Shown piece by piece: positions 1,113 to 47,084 of a DNA stretch of 47,375 nt. How positions within the stretch are numbered: the stretch's first letter is position 1; the number at the start of each line of letters is the position of its first letter. A model generated the notes under the pieces. It was given only the letters and a program-made list of their open reading frames with translations. It was not told the DNA's origin and did not search any database. Position numbers and translations under genes: made by a program. Source of the stretch: an uncultured Planctomycetia bacterium (GTDB lineage Bacteria > Planctomycetota > Phycisphaerae > FEN-1346 > JAACEH01); assembly GCA_903929765.1 (NCBI GenBank), contig CAIYVX010000040.1:1-47375 (forward strand). Direction: 5' to 3'.

Positions 1113-1146
1113 TGGGTGGCATGGCGGCGGTTTTTGCCGCCATGAG
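1113..1146 (+). repeat. Palindromic repeat family I, copy 1
   Basis: The leader GGGTGG is followed by the arms CATGGCGGC (1120-1128) and GCCGCCATG (1136-1144), a perfect 9-bp stem with the loop GGTTTTT. The same element recurs at about 6.6, 17.9, 27.8, 32.1 and 36.6 kb, with stem variants inside flhF, always in the same orientation. Confidence 0.9.
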
Positions 1147-6622: not shown

Positions 6623-6655
6623 GGGTGGCATGGCGGCCGTCGTTTGCCGCCATGT
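6623..6655 (+). repeat. Palindromic repeat family I, copy 2
   Basis: GGGTGG, then arms CATGGCGGC (6629-6637) and GCCGCCATG (6646-6654), loop CGTCGTTT. It lies between the Crp/Fnr gene and a small membrane protein gene. A degraded half copy (GGGTGGCTGCTGGCCGCCAC) sits just upstream from about 6598. Confidence 0.85.
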
Positions 6656-17922: not shown

Positions 17923-17955
17923 GGGTGGCATGGCGGCGGTGTTTGCCGCCATGTT
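17923..17955 (+). repeat. Palindromic repeat family I, copy 3 (fliH-fliI junction)
   Basis: GGGTGG, arms CATGGCGGC (17929-17937) and GCCGCCATG (17945-17953), loop GGTGTTT. It starts eight bases after the fliH stop. A second small hairpin TCGGGT-AAACAG-ACCCGA (17980-17997) followed by AATAATTTTT lies before fliI and could be a weak attenuator. Confidence 0.85.
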
Positions 17956-27839: not shown

Positions 27840-27872
27840 GGGTGGCATGGCGGCGTTGTTTGCCGCCATGTT
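27840..27872 (+). repeat. Palindromic repeat family I, copy 4 (fliN-fliO junction)
   Basis: GGGTGG, arms CATGGCGGC (27846-27854) and GCCGCCATG (27862-27870), loop GTTGTTT. It starts 27 bases after the fliN stop codon. Confidence 0.85.
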
Positions 27873-29967: not shown

Positions 29968-29980
29968 CTCTGCACAGTAG

Positions 29981-30082
29981 CATGGGCGTCCCGCCCATGA
30001 GTGCCACGGGCGTCCCGCCCGTGGAAAGAAGAAGAACAGGGGCAGGATGCCCCTGTGACTCACGGGCAAGATGCCCGTGCCA
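29981..30082 (+). repeat. Array of four palindromic hairpins (family III) before fliR
   Basis: Four hairpins in a row: CATGGGC/GCCCATG (29981-29999), CCACGGGC/GCCCGTGG (30004-30024), CAGGGGCA/TGCCCCTG (30037-30055) and CACGGGC/GCCCGTG (30061-30079). An AAGAAGAA spacer lies before the third. The last two, with the purine spacer, recur on the other strand at 47041-47084, also just before a start codon. Confidence 0.88.
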
Positions 30083-32057: not shown

Positions 32058-32088
32058 GGGTGGCATGGCGGCGGTGTTTGCCGCCATG
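32058..32088 (+). repeat. Palindromic repeat family I, copy 5 (flhB-flhA junction)
   Basis: GGGTGG, arms CATGGCGGC (32064-32072) and GCCGCCATG (32080-32088), loop GGTGTTT. It begins three bases after the flhB stop codon and ends 17 bases before the flhA start. Confidence 0.85.
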
Positions 32089-32105: not shown

Positions 32106-34229
32106 ATGCCAGAAAATCTGGGAACGATGGGTCCGGCGGGACGGGTGGCGGCCTTTTTGGCCAAACACCGCGGCCTCGTTCTGCCCGTGGCGGTCATCTT
32201 CCTGATCGTCGTCATCGTCATGCCGCTCAAGCCCTGGCAAATCGACATACTTTTGTCCTGCAATATCACCCTCAGCATCATGGTCCTGCTGACGACCTTG
32301 TATGTCCGCAAACCCCTCGATTTCAGCGTCTTCCCGAGCTTGCTCCTGGCCATGACGCTCTTCCGCCTGGTCCTGAACGTGGCCTCGACGCGCCTGGTGC
32401 TGACCGTGCCCGACCGCGTGGCCGACCCGACCGCAGCCTCCGGAGCGGCCGGCCACGTCATCGAGGCCTTCGCCACCTTCGTCGCCGGCAACAACCTGGC
32501 CGTCGGCATCATCGTCTTCTCCATCCTGGTCATCATCCAATTCGTCGTCATCACCAAAGGCGCCACGCGCATCAGCGAAGTGGCCGCCCGGTTCACCTTG
32601 GACGGCATGCCCGGCAAGCAGATGGCCATCGACGCCGACCTCAACGCCGGCCTGATCACCGAGGCCGAGGCCCGCGGCCGCCGCGAAACCATCGCCCACG
32701 AAAGCGATTTCTACGGAGCCATGGACGGTGCTTCCAAATTCGTCCGCGGCGACGCCATCGCCGGCATCATCATCACCCTCGTCAACATCCTCGGCGGGTT
32801 CTACGTCGGCCTGGTCGAACACGGCTGGCCGCTGGCCGAATGCCTGAAGGTCTTCACGCGGCTCACCATCGGCGACGGCCTCGTGACGCAGGTGCCGGCC
32901 TTCATCGTCTCGATCTCCGCCGGTTTGCTGGTGACCCGGTCCACCTCCAAGACCGACCTGGGCCAGGAAATGGTGGGCCAGTTGACGACCAGCCCGACGG
33001 CCCTGATTTTCGCCGCGATCTTCTTGGTGACGATGGGCGTGATGGGCTTGCCGATGTTGCCGCTCTTTCTGCTGGCGGGGATTTGCGGCACGCTGGCGTT
33101 TGTGTTGAGTAAGAGTGCGAAGAAGAATTCGGCGCTGGAAGCGGAGAAGGCCAAGCAGGCTGCCGCCCCCGCCCGCAAACCGGCCCAGGACGAGAGCATG
33201 GTCCAGGTCGATGCTATGGAACTGGAAATCGGCTACGGCTTGATTCGGTTGGTTGACGCGACGCAAGGCGGCGACCTGCTCGACCGCATCTCGATGCTCC
33301 GCCGCCAGATCGCCACCGAACTGGGCATCATCGTGCCGCCCATTCGCATCCGCGACAACATGCGGCTGGAACCGAGCGACTATGTGGTCCGCATCAAGGG
33401 CAACCCCGTCGGTCGCGGGCAGGCCCGCGTCGGCATGTTCCTGGCCATGGACAGCGGGTTGGCCTCGGGCGAATTGACCACGGGCATCGAGACCAAGGAA
33501 CCGGCCTTCGGCCTCCCGGCCTGGTGGATTCCCGAAAGCGAGCGGCAGCGGGCCGAGATGCTCAATTACACTGTTGTCGATGCGTCCAGCGTCCTGGCCA
33601 CGCACCTGACCGAAGTGATTCGCAGCCACGCCGCCGAACTCCTGACGCGCGAAGAGGTGAACAAGCTGATCAAGACCCTGAAGGAAAAGGCCCCGAGCGT
33701 GGTCGAAGAAGTGGTTCCGAACGTCCTCAAGGTCGGCGACGTCCAGAAGGTCCTCCAGAACCTCCTCCGCGAGCGGGTGCCGATCCGCGACCTGGAAACG
33801 ATTCTGGAAACCCTCGGCGATTGGGCTCCGCGGGCCAACGACATCGACGTGCTCACCGAGTACGTCCGCAACGCCCTGGCCCGGGCCTTGTGCGAACAGT
33901 ACCAGGGCGAGGACGGCGTGCTGCGCGTCGTCACGCTCGACCCGGCCCTGGAGGATCGCATCAACAGCCACATCGAGCACAACGAGCGTGGGACGTTCCT
34001 GACCATGCCGCCGGAGGTGTCGCGGAAGGTGGCGCGGGAAGTGGCCGAAGCAGTGCGGCCGCTGGTCAGTGCGGGCCATCCGGCGGTGGTGTTGACCTCG
34101 CCGCAGGTGCGGGCCCAGGTGAAACGAATTGCCGAGAGCGCCACGGGCAACCTGGTGGTCCTCTCGTTCAACGAGATCGTCCGTGGCGTCAAGGTTGAAA
34201 GCATGGGCATGGCGGAGTTACGAACATGA
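32106..34229 (+). CDS. flhA: Flagellar export protein FlhA
   Basis: A 707-aa export motor component. Eight membrane helices fill residues about 15-330. The FHIPEP signature is SVFPSLLLAMTLFRLVLNVASTRLVL. The cytoplasmic loop contains ARFTLDGMPGKQMAIDADLNAGLI, important for proton-driven export. The C-terminal cytoplasmic domain (about 365-707) binds chaperone-substrate complexes and ends in SFNEIVRGVKVESMGMAEL. The stop codon overlaps the flhF start (ATGA), so the two are translationally coupled. The length is normal (about 690-710). Confidence 0.97.
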   Translation: MPENLGTMGPAGRVAAFLAKHRGLVLPVAVIFLIVVIVMPLKPWQIDILLSCNITLSIMVLLTTLYVRKPLDFSVFPSLLLAMTLFRLVLNVASTRLVLTVPDRVADPTAASGAAGHVIEAFATFVAGNNLAVGIIVFSILVIIQFVVITKGATRISEVAARFTLDGMPGKQMAIDADLNAGLITEAEARGRRETIAHESDFYGAMDGASKFVRGDAIAGIIITLVNILGGFYVGLVEHGWPLAECLKVFTRLTIGDGLVTQVPAFIVSISAGLLVTRSTSKTDLGQEMVGQLTTSPTALIFAAIFLVTMGVMGLPMLPLFLLAGICGTLAFVLSKSAKKNSALEAEKAKQAAAPARKPAQDESMVQVDAMELEIGYGLIRLVDATQGGDLLDRISMLRRQIATELGIIVPPIRIRDNMRLEPSDYVVRIKGNPVGRGQARVGMFLAMDSGLASGELTTGIETKEPAFGLPAWWIPESERQRAEMLNYTVVDASSVLATHLTEVIRSHAAELLTREEVNKLIKTLKEKAPSVVEEVVPNVLKVGDVQKVLQNLLRERVPIRDLETILETLGDWAPRANDIDVLTEYVRNALARALCEQYQGEDGVLRVVTLDPALEDRINSHIEHNERGTFLTMPPEVSRKVAREVAEAVRPLVSAGHPAVVLTSPQVRAQVKRIAESATGNLVVLSFNEIVRGVKVESMGMAELRT

Positions 34230-35635
34230 TGATGAAGACTTTCAAGGCGGCCTCGATGCGCGAAGCCCTGGGCCAGGTCAAACGGAACCTGGGGGCGGGG
34301 GCGGTGATTCTGGGAACGCGAGCCTATCGCACCGGAGGCTTCCTGGGACTGGGCCAGCGGGACGTGGTCGAGATCACGGCCAGCGCCGATGGCGCGGCCG
34401 TGGAGCGAGCGCCGAAGCTGGGTGGATCATCAAGAACGGTGGGTGGCATGGCTGCCGATGTTGGCAGCCATGAACGCAAACCTTCCCCCGGCCTGACTTC
34501 TCCCCAGAGAGAGGGGAAGGCCGTCGATCATCGCGTCCGCCAGACCTACGGCCAACTCGTCGCCGAGGCCAAAGACAAAGCCGTGCACGTCAGCGCCGGC
34601 GAACTTCGCAGCGAGATGAGCGGCCTGAAGGAAATGGTCAACACGCTGATTCAGGAGACGCGGGCCCATCGCCAGCCGGAGGTGCCGGCGGAACTCTTCG
34701 ATACCTATGTGCGGCTCCTGGGCAACGAAGTCGCGGACGAGTTGGCCAAAGATCTGGTGAAGCGCATTCGCGAGCAACTCCCCGAAAGTGAGTGGGGCCA
34801 GGAGCACCGGGTCCGCGAAACGTTGGTCCGCTACGTCGCCTCGCGGATCGAAGTGGCCGGGCCGATTGAACTGGGCGAAGGCCAGACGCCGCGCATCATC
34901 GCCCTGATCGGGCCGACCGGCGTGGGCAAGACCACCACCGTCGCCAAGCTCGCCGCCCAGTTCAAGTTGAAGCAGGGCAAGTCGGTCGGCCTGATCACCA
35001 TCGACACCTATCGAATCGGGGCGGTCGACCAACTGCGGACCTACGCCGAGATCATCAGCGTGCCGCTCAAGGTCGTCCTGACGCCGAAGGAGTTGCGCCG
35101 GGCCGTGGACGAGTTCGCCGACAAGGACGTGGTCCTGATCGACACCGCCGGCCGCAACCAGGGCGACACGATGCGAATGAACGAGTTGCGGCAGTTCCTC
35201 GAAGCCGTGCGACCCGACGAAACGCACCTGGTCATCTCGACCACCGCCGGGCAGAAAAACGCCACCGCCGTGATCGAAAAGTTCAGCGAGTTCCAGGTCG
35301 ACCGGGTGATTCTGACCAAGATGGACGAAGCCGTCAGCTTCGGCATGGTGCTCGGCGTACTGGAACGGACGCGGCAGAAATTATCTTACGTCACCGCCGG
35401 CCAGGACGTGCCGGACGACATCGAGCCGGGACAGGCCCGGAAGCTGGCGGAGTTGATCGTTCCTGCTGTTGGAACAAAAGCAACGTCGGGTGGCCTGGCG
35501 GCCGATGTTGGCCGCCATGAATGTGTAAGGCCTAAAACGGTGGGTGGCATGGCTGCCGATGTTGGCAGCCATGAATCATCGACTCAAGACACCTCACCCG
35601 GCGGGACGCGGACGATGGAAGGGATAAAGAAATGA
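34226..35635 (+). CDS. flhF: Flagellar SRP-like GTPase FlhF carrying repeat-encoded inserts
   Basis: A 469-aa GTPase of the SRP family that sets where the flagellum is built. The N-terminal part is KTFKAASMREALGQVKRNLGAGAVILGTR. The NG domain has P-loop GPTGVGKT (229-236, Lys235), TIDTYRIGAVDQL, Walker B VLIDTAGRNQGD and TKMDEAVSFG. Three inserts are encoded by family I palindromes in frame: residues 72-83 (VGGMAADVGSHE), 421-432 (SGGLAADVGRHE) and 439-450 (identical to the first). The first lies in the linker before the N domain and is followed by a family II-like segment (KPSPGLTSPQREGK). The last two form a C-terminal tail. The enzyme core is untouched. Confidence 0.95.
   Translation: MMMKTFKAASMREALGQVKRNLGAGAVILGTRAYRTGGFLGLGQRDVVEITASADGAAVERAPKLGGSSRTVGGMAADVGSHERKPSPGLTSPQREGKAVDHRVRQTYGQLVAEAKDKAVHVSAGELRSEMSGLKEMVNTLIQETRAHRQPEVPAELFDTYVRLLGNEVADELAKDLVKRIREQLPESEWGQEHRVRETLVRYVASRIEVAGPIELGEGQTPRIIALIGPTGVGKTTTVAKLAAQFKLKQGKSVGLITIDTYRIGAVDQLRTYAEIISVPLKVVLTPKELRRAVDEFADKDVVLIDTAGRNQGDTMRMNELRQFLEAVRPDETHLVISTTAGQKNATAVIEKFSEFQVDRVILTKMDEAVSFGMVLGVLERTRQKLSYVTAGQDVPDDIEPGQARKLAELIVPAVGTKATSGGLAADVGRHECVRPKTVGGMAADVGSHESSTQDTSPGGTRTMEGIKK
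34441..34522 (+). repeat. Family I palindrome plus family II-like segment inside flhF
   Basis: GGGTGGCATGGCTGCC (34441-34456) pairs with GGCAGCCATG (34463-34472); compared with the intergenic copies both arms changed (GGC to CTG-type) and stay complementary. It is followed by CTTCTCCCC-AGAGAGA-GGGGAAG (34496-34518), resembling family II. Both are in frame and free of stop codons. Confidence 0.8.
35488..35573 (+). repeat. Two family I palindromes in the 3' end of flhF
   Basis: Copy at 35488-35520 has TGGCGGCC/GGCCGCCA arms and the copy at 35542-35573 has CATGGCTGCC/GGCAGCCATG arms, both with the loop GATGTT type. The second is nearly identical to the copy at 34441. They encode the C-terminal tail of FlhF. 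Confidence 0.85.
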
Positions 35636-36553: not shown

Positions 36554-36584
36554 GGGTGGCATGGCGGCGGTGTTTGCCGCCATG
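36554..36584 (+). repeat. Palindromic repeat family I, copy after flhG
   Basis: GGGTGG, arms CATGGCGGC (36560-36568) and GCCGCCATG (36576-36584), loop GGTGTTT, identical in arms to the copies before fliI and flhA. Confidence 0.85.
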
Positions 36585-37937: not shown

Positions 37938-37954
37938 GCAGCGGCGGTGAGCTG

Positions 37955-38079
37955 GAGCAGTTAACGATTGAATAGTTACTTCCAGGGTGCCACACCTTGG
38001 CCCCCCGGCTGTTCGGGGGGCAAGGTGTGAGGAAGGCCGGCAAACTTTCGCACGGAATTCAACCAGTCGTTATCTGCTC
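37955..38079. mobile_element. 125-bp element with terminal inverted repeats, copy A
   Basis: The left end GAGCAGTTAACGATTG and the reversed right end GAGCAGATAACGACTG match at 14 of 16 positions. The interior carries the family IV hairpin (ACACCTTGGCCCCCC with GGGGGGCAAGGTGT). Exactly 125 bp long, like copies B (41732-41856) and C (41859-41983). It is too short to encode a protein, so it is MITE-like. Confidence 0.88.
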
Positions 38080-39968: not shown

Positions 39969-41732
39969 ATGGGATGGTCGTTCACTATATTTAATCTGCT
40001 GGCGGTCTTGACGGCCGTCCTGGCTTGGGGCGCCGGGACGGTTCAGGCCGGCACGCTCAGTATCACGGCGTTTACTTCGACGGCTTGGGTCTACCAGAAC
40101 ACCCCGAACCTCACCCAGTACCGCCATTGGCGGCCGCTGACGGTCAACGTCACGAGCAACACCTATGGCAACACCTCTTACACGCTGACCCTCTCGCAGA
40201 GCGGCCCCGGCGCCGTAACCGTCATGACCACGCCCAAGTACGGCTTTACCGGGCCGACGATGGTTCTGCCGCTCGTGGGCGGGCCGCGACAGAGCGATTT
40301 CGTCACCGGAACCGGATCATGCACGATCCAGGTCACCGTCTCGGGCAATGTCGGGGGCCAGGCCCAGGTCTCGGTGCCGTTTGCCGTGCGCCGACTCGGC
40401 GACATCAACGCCGACGGCCTGGTGACCGCCGCCGACCGCGACGCCCTGAACGCACGCCTCAACGGCTTGCCGACCGGCCTCGCCGACGACGCCTTCGACC
40501 TGATCGGCGAAGGCTCTGTCACTGCCGCCGACCGCGTGGTGCTCAACAAGATTCTCAACGGTCTGCTCAACGACCAGAGCGTCTACGCCCAGTGGAGCAA
40601 CGGCCTCTCGCCCAGCCCGAGTTACTTCCCGATCGGCGTCTGGCTCCAGTCGAGCTGGAATGCGGCCAGATACAAGGCGGCCGGCTTCAATCTCTACATC
40701 GGCTATTGGGGCGACCCGGCGGCCTCGGACCTCGCGACTCTCCGGTCGGCCGGGATGCAGTTGATCTGTGCCCAGGACGCGGCCTCTCTGAGCTTGTCCT
40801 CCTCCTACCCCGGCGTTATCGTCGGCTGGTTGCAGGTGGACGAGCCGGACAACGCCCAGTCAGACGGTCATGGCGGCTATGGCCCCCCCATCCTGCCGTC
40901 GGTCATCGTCGGCGATTACCAATCCTTCCGCGCCGCCGATCCCACCCGGCCCGTCTTCCTGGGCTGCGGCCGGGGCGTGGCCAACTTTTACTGGGTCGGT
41001 CGGGGCACGGGCTACGGTCCCCAGGACTACCCCTTCTGGACCACCTCCGCCAACCCCGTCGGCGGCTACTATGCCGGCAGCGATATCGCCTCATACGACA
41101 TTTATCCATTCAATAGCACTGACCAGTCCGCGAATAGTCCGTGGTATGTAGCCTTTGGCGTGGACAACCTGGTGGCCTGGACCAATTCTCGGACCCAGAC
41201 CGTCTGGAACGATCTCGAATGCACCAGCATCAACGGCTCGCTCGGTCCGACCGGCCCGACGCCGGCCCAGACCCGGGCCGAGATCTGGATGAGCCTGATC
41301 CACGGCTCCCATGGCCTGGTCCTCTTCTGTCACCAGTGGCACCCCTTTTGCGAGTACGAACTGCTCCAGGAACCGGCCATGCTGGCCATGGTCACGGCCT
41401 CCAACCAGCAGATTCAGCAACTCGCCCCGGTCCTGAATTGCCCCTCGGTGGCCGTTTCGCTCAGCCCGTTGTCGGTCCCGAGCGGCAGTTACCCGGTGGA
41501 TTATATGGTCAAGCAATACGCCGGTTCGACCTGGCTCTTTGCCGTCGAGATGCGTAACGGCTCGGCCGCACCGACCTTTACCGTGCCGGGACTGAAGCAG
41601 CCGGCCACAGCCGTGGTCCTGGGCGAGAGCCGCAGCCTGCCCGTCACCGCCAGCGGCGGCGTCTTCCAGTTCCAGGACAGTTTCGGCCCCTACGCCGTCC
41701 ACCTGTACCAGATCACGCCGAACTCGCCGTAG
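39969..41732 (+). CDS. Secreted protein with dockerin-like module and glycosidase-like barrel
   Basis: A 587-aa secreted protein. The signal peptide (IFNLLAVLTAVLAWGAGTVQAG) begins directly at ATG 39969. Residues about 25-140 are a Thr/Ser-rich beta domain. Residues 144-201 have two dockerin-type calcium loops (GDINADGLVTAADRDALN, then DLIGEGSVTAADRVVLN). Residues about 210-490 look like a TIM-barrel glycosidase-type domain (FPIGVWLQSSWNAARYKAAGF; GWLQVDEPDN with candidate catalytic Asp/Glu; WNDLECTSING). A beta-sandwich ends the protein. No GH family could be named. The internal place of the dockerin-like module is unusual. GTG 39894 was rejected because it buries the signal peptide. Confidence 0.75.
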   Translation: MGWSFTIFNLLAVLTAVLAWGAGTVQAGTLSITAFTSTAWVYQNTPNLTQYRHWRPLTVNVTSNTYGNTSYTLTLSQSGPGAVTVMTTPKYGFTGPTMVLPLVGGPRQSDFVTGTGSCTIQVTVSGNVGGQAQVSVPFAVRRLGDINADGLVTAADRDALNARLNGLPTGLADDAFDLIGEGSVTAADRVVLNKILNGLLNDQSVYAQWSNGLSPSPSYFPIGVWLQSSWNAARYKAAGFNLYIGYWGDPAASDLATLRSAGMQLICAQDAASLSLSSSYPGVIVGWLQVDEPDNAQSDGHGGYGPPILPSVIVGDYQSFRAADPTRPVFLGCGRGVANFYWVGRGTGYGPQDYPFWTTSANPVGGYYAGSDIASYDIYPFNSTDQSANSPWYVAFGVDNLVAWTNSRTQTVWNDLECTSINGSLGPTGPTPAQTRAEIWMSLIHGSHGLVLFCHQWHPFCEYELLQEPAMLAMVTASNQQIQQLAPVLNCPSVAVSLSPLSVPSGSYPVDYMVKQYAGSTWLFAVEMRNGSAAPTFTVPGLKQPATAVVLGESRSLPVTASGGVFQFQDSFGPYAVHLYQITPNSP

Positions 41733-41856
41733 AGCTGTTAACGATTGAATGGTTACTTCCAGGGTGCCACACCTTGGCCCCCCGGCTGTTTGGGGGGCAA
41801 GGTGTGTGGAAGGGCGGCAAACTTTCCCAAAGAGTACAACCAATCGTTATCTGCTC
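41732..41856. mobile_element. 125-bp element with terminal inverted repeats, copy B
   Basis: Left end GAGCTGTTAACGATTG, reversed right end GAGCAGATAACGATTG. TA flanks both sides, which may be a target duplication of the Tc1/mariner-IS630 type. The stop codon of the upstream gene is TA plus the first G of the element. The interior family IV hairpin is like copy A. Confidence 0.88.
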
Positions 41857-41858
41857 TA

Positions 41859-41983
41859 GATCTGTTAACGTTTGAATGGTTACTTCCAGGGTGCCACACC
41901 TTGTCCCCCCGGCTGTTTGGGGGGCAAGGTGTGTGGAAGGCCGGCAAACTTTCCCAAAGAGTACAACCAACCGTTATCTGCTC
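41859..41983. mobile_element. 125-bp element with terminal inverted repeats, copy C
   Basis: Left end GATCTGTTAACGTTTG, reversed right end GAGCAGATAACGGTTG. It lies in direct tandem with copy B, two bases apart, in the gap between two converging genes. Its GC-rich central hairpin may end transcription from both sides. Confidence 0.88.
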
Positions 41984-47014: not shown

Positions 47015-47040
47015 TCTTCGACCTTTCTTCTTTACAGTGG

Positions 47041-47084
47041 CACGGGCGTCCCGCCCGTGAGTCCCAGGGGCATCTTGCCCCTGG
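47041..47084. repeat. Two family III hairpins before propeller gene 2
   Basis: CACGGGC/GCCCGTG (47041-47059) and CCAGGGGCA/TGCCCCTGG (47064-47084). Read on the - strand, the order purine tract, CAGGGGC hairpin, CACGGGC hairpin, purine tract, ATG is the same as before fliR (30029-30103). Confidence 0.85.

Follow-up and report, generated by a model that had tools for sequence, protein, structure and literature searches.

The flhF gene in the window (the whole 47,375-nucleotide stretch of DNA analyzed here) lies between flhA and flhG and carries three palindromes that are read through in frame, which raises the question of whether these are mobile DNA that the protein tolerates, ordinary protein sequence, or segments with a role of their own in a polarity-determining GTPase. 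The original prediction placed in-frame palindromes at 34441, 35488 and 35542; as Table 1 shows, all three are found at those sites within an intact ORF, and the peptide expected at residues 72–83 and 439–450 is read there. The SRP54 domain spans residues 223–411, and therefore all three inserts fall outside the GTPase domain, as had been claimed, with one in the N-terminal linker and the other two indeed making up a C-terminal tail. We consider these palindromes to be GTGG-tagged copies of a REP element of the GTAG superfamily, selfish DNA that is tolerated in frame where the added peptide is harmless, and we give this reading a probability of about 0.84.

Table 1. Features of flhF and intergenic copies of the palindrome family (F1) in the window
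Feature	Positions	Strand	Remarks
flhF, SRP54-type GTPase	34226..35635	+	intact ORF, 469 codons; G domain residues 223-411
REP copy 1 = VGGMAADVGSHE, residues 72-83	34439..34474	+	pattern match 34442-34472; GTGG tag 34443-34446; stem 34447-34456 / 34463-34472; loop GATGTT
REP copy 2 = SGGLAADVGRHE, residues 421-432	35486..35521	+	pattern match 35489-35519
REP copy 3 = VGGMAADVGSHE, residues 439-450	35540..35575	+	pattern match 35543-35573
Insert 1, N-terminal linker, ~27 residues extra vs sister genus	34436..34522, approximate limits	+	linker not exactly alignable
Second repeat-like stretch KPSPGLTSPQREGK within insert 1, pyrimidine/purine-rich partial palindrome	~34481..34522	+	sequence
FlhF C-terminal tail, residues 416-469, ~45 residues longer than sister genus	35471..35632	+	
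ATGA overlap, flhF stop / flhG start	35632..35635	+	also present in sister genus
Intergenic F1 copy, 5 nt past flhB stop	32059..32088	+	
Intergenic F1 copy, after flhG	36555..36584	+	
Intergenic F1 copy, 29 nt past a stop	27841..27870	+	
Intergenic F1 copy, 10 nt past a stop	17924..17953	+	
Intergenic F1 copy, 31-nt type	6624..6654	+	
Intergenic F1 copy	1115..1144	+	

FlhF and its relatives

Relatives that carry the same peptides without the repeat family would, the original prediction reasoned, mark the inserts as ordinary protein sequence. The FlhF of a sister genus (L044) lacks both segments, and the peptides are seen in no other aligned relative. That sister-genus genome (G001) is the only one of the same family in the comparison and has the same gene order at flhF. 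Its FlhF is 69% identical to the host protein over the alignment, with a linker shorter by 27 residues after residue 52 and a C-terminus that comes 45 residues sooner; in the other fully aligned relatives FlhF likewise stops shortly past a conserved segment near residue 412. Since the nearest relative belongs to a different genus (~70% identity), the empty site in FlhF is not placeable to the base, and because the length of the linker varies naturally among relatives, neither are the bounds of insert 1. A contig search for strains of the same genus returned just relatives at ~50% identity or less. Insert 1 also contains a stretch that the first reading overlooked, KPSPGLTSPQREGK, which resembles a second repeat family, F2, by eye only.

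In an AlphaFold2 model of FlhF built from 33 sequences, the core is predicted with confidence and pLDDT drops below 50 at residues 58–105 and 420–464, the two stretches with which the inserts coincide. The low values fit disorder, although they are partly expected because the alignment columns there are without homologues. FlhF probably tolerates the inserts as disordered segments without a particular task.

A GTGG-tagged palindrome family

A census of F1 was carried out by pattern searches and stretches of the assembly (96% complete, 116 contigs). The pattern GGTGGCNTGGCNG...NCNGCCATG occurs 117 times in the 3.83 Mb genome and the reversed-pattern control 0 times, and chance is therefore excluded. 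Subtypes A and B are 30 and 31 nt long, subtype C is 25 nt with a 2-nt loop, and subtype D is the flhF type, which differs from B at two bases, in the loop and the stem. Genome-wide, the flhF subtype (GGCNGCC-GATGTT-GGCNGCC) is limited to four copies; flhF itself contains three of them, and the fourth lies within a different ORF. In the aligned copies the GTGG tag is invariant and lies immediately 5' of a 9–10 bp stem, while the loop is variable.

Intergenic copies lie mostly in unidirectional gaps and in the sense direction, at a median distance past the stop codon of 27 nt (B) or 47 nt (A). Subtype C is the exception, being found mostly within called genes. Matches of subtype A "inside" genes lie near called starts and were set aside as probable start miscalls. 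Close inverted pairs (non-overlapping, within 250 nt) number six, with the tags outside in 6/6, and outside the in-gene arrays there is one close pair in the same orientation. The claim that the family recurs elsewhere in the window holds, as six further exact-pattern copies lie outside flhF, 6/6 of them intergenic; it had been placed in five gaps of the flagellar cluster, however, and the flagellar region has four exact-pattern intergenic copies.

The tagged hairpin, the high copy number, the intergenic bias toward 3' ends and the tags-outside dimers are those of GTAG-superfamily REPs, and the flhF palindrome fits this superfamily as a GTGG-tagged member. Viewed as a MITE, F1 is a single hairpin, and the CTTCTTCACCCCTCTCCC direct repeat that surrounds some of the coding copies may belong to F2 and not be a target-site duplication. 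Palindromes that share the tag and foot but have different interiors are patchily distributed in the wider class, in 14/397 genomes. The window has other repeats as well: GTAG/GTGG-type palindromes of the CATGGGCGTCCCGCCCATG type, from a third REP family, at 29969–30024 and 47029–47084, and a 127-nt repeat in three copies, two of them in tandem (37953–38079, 41730–41856 and 41857–41983).

In-frame copies, empty sites and a transposase in ValS

The reading of in-gene copies was traced with a window-trained codon model and six-frame tracing. The genome-wide in-frame count proposed with the original prediction comes to at least 16 copies of the 31-nt type (B/D) in nine long ORFs; every one is sense and uses the frame GGT GGC ATG GCG GCC (+0). 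The hosts are FlhF, FolC, a RecB-family helicase (AddA-like), the ORF adjoining that helicase, an AddB-like protein, an AhbD-AhbA/AhbB fusion, MobB-MobA, an LptA-like protein and a protein with a GLMA-like domain. All six frames are open in the core, as are four in the composite of core plus the 3' extension ESQTPDEESSLLHPSP. With independence assumed, the chance of nine ORFs sharing one of four open frames is ~(1/4)^8 = ~1.5e-5. One frame is used though four are open, and therefore stop avoidance alone is not the explanation; copying between coding copies might account for it. In-gene copies of subtype C are read in several frames, so the one-frame rule holds only for the B/D composite.

The single sense frame speaks for the possibility, which we hold as tentative, that the in-gene sub-family (palindrome plus ESQTPDEESSLLHPSP) is a coding module, or a set of recombining coding copies, whose frame is maintained because a soluble, disordered peptide is selected for. 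The extension is present in most of the in-gene copies beyond flhF and in none of the intergenic ones; the +0 peptide, mildly acidic and free of aromatics, appears prone to disorder; and the third codon position is the most variable in the extension (24/20/35). The core, however, shows no third-position excess in the same test for synonymous change (19/7/4), the flhF copies do not have the whole extension, and copies within one gene are not independent. Moreover, the frame bias might stem purely from the removal of insertions with harmful peptides, or from landing in an F2 repeat already in frame.

Alignments with the sister genus show the host protein to be contiguous where the host genome (G000) carries an insert in FolC, AroC, UvrA, MiaB, AsnB and ValS. 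The FolC insert (53 residues, F1 plus F2) and the AroC insert (34 residues) are missing there, and the largest gaps in the other proteins are 42 (UvrA), 24 (MiaB), 19 (AsnB) and 233 residues (ValS); HypF gives split matches only. Clean absence in an orthologue thus refers to FolC for F1 and to AroC, UvrA, MiaB, AsnB and ValS for other repeat families, with FlhF compared by alignment. On solved structures the AroC insert maps between residues 175 and 213 of 1q1l; the FolC insert maps to 2gca between residues 220 and 239, where its two matched domains adjoin. Since a search of the host genome gave no second copy of ValS, FolC or AroC, the decorated proteins are presumably functional.

Several loci carry related decorations. 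In-frame copies of F2 (CACCCCTCTCCCTTGGGAGAGGGTGG, translated as HPSPLGEGG...GPGEG) occur in UvrA, an M16-type peptidase, AsnB, AroC, HypF and others (L259, L260, L262–L265, L268, L269, L272, L273 and L277); L261, L270, L271, L274 and L256, which have F2 peptides but strongly negative coding scores, were left out. Above strict thresholds there are 3 copies of F2 and 2 of a further family, F3, too few for a frame test. MiaB (L248:127–1725, G000:C84) contains an in-frame dimer of the third REP family (MGILPMSPTGVPPV...GQDAPGTHGRDARAT), which is abundant in the sister genus too. Repair proteins (AddA/AddB-like, UvrA) at L205 and L212 (G000:C86, C114) are heavily decorated, in agreement with the published bias of intragenic REPs toward repair genes. 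Finally, AhbD, AhbA and AhbB are encoded in one 762-aa ORF (L210:1752–4037, minus strand, G000:C105) with two REP copies between AhbD and AhbA, and their matches in G001 lie in separate ORFs on different contigs. Judged from this arrangement, REPs may have joined the AhbD and AhbA/AhbB genes.

A REP-associated tyrosine transposase (RAYT) lies in frame within the ValS ORF (L275:1601–4999, G000:C82), in the region before TVATTRPETMLGD. ORF residues 385–488 match NF047646 (E 8.8e-18, under the model's curated cut-off), PF01797 is matched above its cut-off, TnpA-REP (4er8) weakly, and a MPNHIH motif is present. Inverted GTGG REPs of family F3 (GTGGCACGGGC...GCCCGTG) flank this gene. The insert sits between residues 204 and 210 of the ValRS structure 1gax, a second, F2-type insert sits between residues 364 and 366, and the transposase is missing from the ValS of the three other genomes compared. 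Among the 8 Y1_Tnp genes of this 96% complete genome, it is the only one with tagged REPs, and none is flanked by the flhF palindrome or lies near an F1 copy. The sequence that F1 and F3 have in common is only GTGGCAYGG and CCRTG, on which basis the ValS-internal RAYT is a candidate mobilizer of both families. A limited literature search gave no report of an in-frame transposase inside ValRS.

Origin and meaning of the FlhF inserts

It is possible, but in our view unlikely, that the FlhF tail arose by read-through, with REPs that once lay between flhF and flhG being absorbed when a stop codon was lost. REPs usually lie just past stops, and the REP array between AhbD and AhbA, whose domains are separate ORFs in the sister genus, suggests that fusion mediated by REPs can occur. 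The ATGA overlap of flhF and flhG is found in both genomes, however, and therefore there was probably no gap to absorb; insert 1 is also left unexplained.

We consider it very improbable that the inserts function in FlhF, for example as a binding tail or as an mRNA hairpin tuning flhF/flhG expression. Such a role would agree with the stem of copies 1 and 3, where a T-A pair replaces the usual G-C and preserves the hairpin; the change is silent in arm 1 (GCG to GCT), replaces Arg with Ser in arm 2 (CGC to AGC) and is not found in the other two copies of the flhF subtype. The RNA fold z values are −4.6 and −4.8 for copies 1 and 3, and a weak −1.4 for copy 2. But copies 1 and 3 have 32 identical nt and look like one duplication, one probably deriving from the other by local copying, so that the paired change represents a single event. 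In addition, the same palindromes occur in many unrelated proteins, and an Rfam search gave no match. As flhF is one host among many, there is no sign of a role tied to polarity in particular. As for ordinary fast-evolving protein sequence or an assembly artefact, the natural variation in the length of the FlhF linker would suit the former, but the genome-wide copies refute this reading and leave it a negligible chance, as near-identical DNA lies between genes and in unrelated proteins whose sequence is contiguous on either side of the insert and matches the sister genus.

The reading that we prefer, a tolerated GTGG-tagged REP, would work as follows. The F1 hairpin would be non-autonomous mobile DNA, most likely spread by a Y1 (HUH) transposase of the REP type that works on single-stranded DNA. 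The majority of copies would land past stop codons, and an in-gene copy of the right total length would simply be translated, which is possible because the core is stop-free in all six frames; the GTGG tag, unlike GTAG, brings no TAG, and so the core stays that way. The survivors would be copies whose extra peptide does no harm, in loops, linkers and tails. In FlhF, the tolerated sites would be the variable linker that joins the N-terminal domain to the NG core, and the C-terminus, just ahead of the ATGA junction with flhG.

New here are the host lineage, the one-frame coding sub-family, the apparently REP-joined AhbD-AhbAB protein and the in-frame REP transposase gene in ValRS. With these observations, palindromic insertions in frame are known from a planctomycete lineage as well, where they decorate many conserved proteins, among them ones for which no second copy was found (ValS, FolC, AroC). 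Whether the inserts are merely tolerated or change the protein, and why a single reading frame is used, are now testable. The AhbD-AhbAB protein and the ValRS transposase suggest that REPs can make linkers and embedded domains. A bolder proposal, which we regard as a long shot, is that a REP sub-population is a protein-coding mobile module with its frame kept by selection on the disordered peptide, and that the transposase of a related REP persists as an in-frame domain of ValRS. If so, transposase expression would be tied to an essential gene, apparently that of the only valyl-tRNA synthetase.

Comparison with known systems

Intragenic GTAG-tagged REPs have already been described (Di Nocera et al. 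2013, PMC3733652). Most GTAG-20 elements of Opitutus terrae have a GTGG tag, and this species, also a member of the PVC superphylum, has the largest number of intragenic GTAG REPs (PMC3733652). REPtrons are absent in some species, so a flanked RAYT is not obligatory (PMC3733652). F1 shares with GTAG REPs the short hairpin, the terminal GTRG tag, high copy number, sites just past stops, tags-outside dimers and in-frame gene copies, with many repair hosts (uvrA, recB/uvrD types) and tRNA synthetases. It differs in its Phycisphaerae host, its new sequence, a GTGG invariant in the aligned copies, a loop of 6–8 nt in two subtypes, the lack of a transposase found beside it and a composite coding sub-family in one frame. 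REPIN/RAYT systems (Y1 HUH transposases; TnpA-REP, PDB 4er8) likewise have tagged hairpins and inverted pairs, and the host genome has a RAYT with inverted GTGG REPs on either side, inside ValS; that RAYT, however, is flanked by F3 and not by the flhF family.

Published precedents exist both for REPs read in frame and for Rickettsia palindromic elements (RPEs) (PMC3733652; PMC10969869). F1 resembles RPEs as palindromic selfish DNA, in frame in unrelated genes (here nine ORFs) with one peptide recurring. RPEs are set apart by description as Rickettsia elements of ~100–150 bp, whereas the F1 core is 25–31 nt and GTGG-tagged, with a longer composite in coding copies; the tag of RPE-4 and RPE-6 is CGTC (PMC3733652). 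The original prediction of a coding-tolerant mobile palindrome comparable to RPEs is thus supported and apt as an analogy, and the anatomy fits GTAG/GTGG-tagged REPs more precisely.
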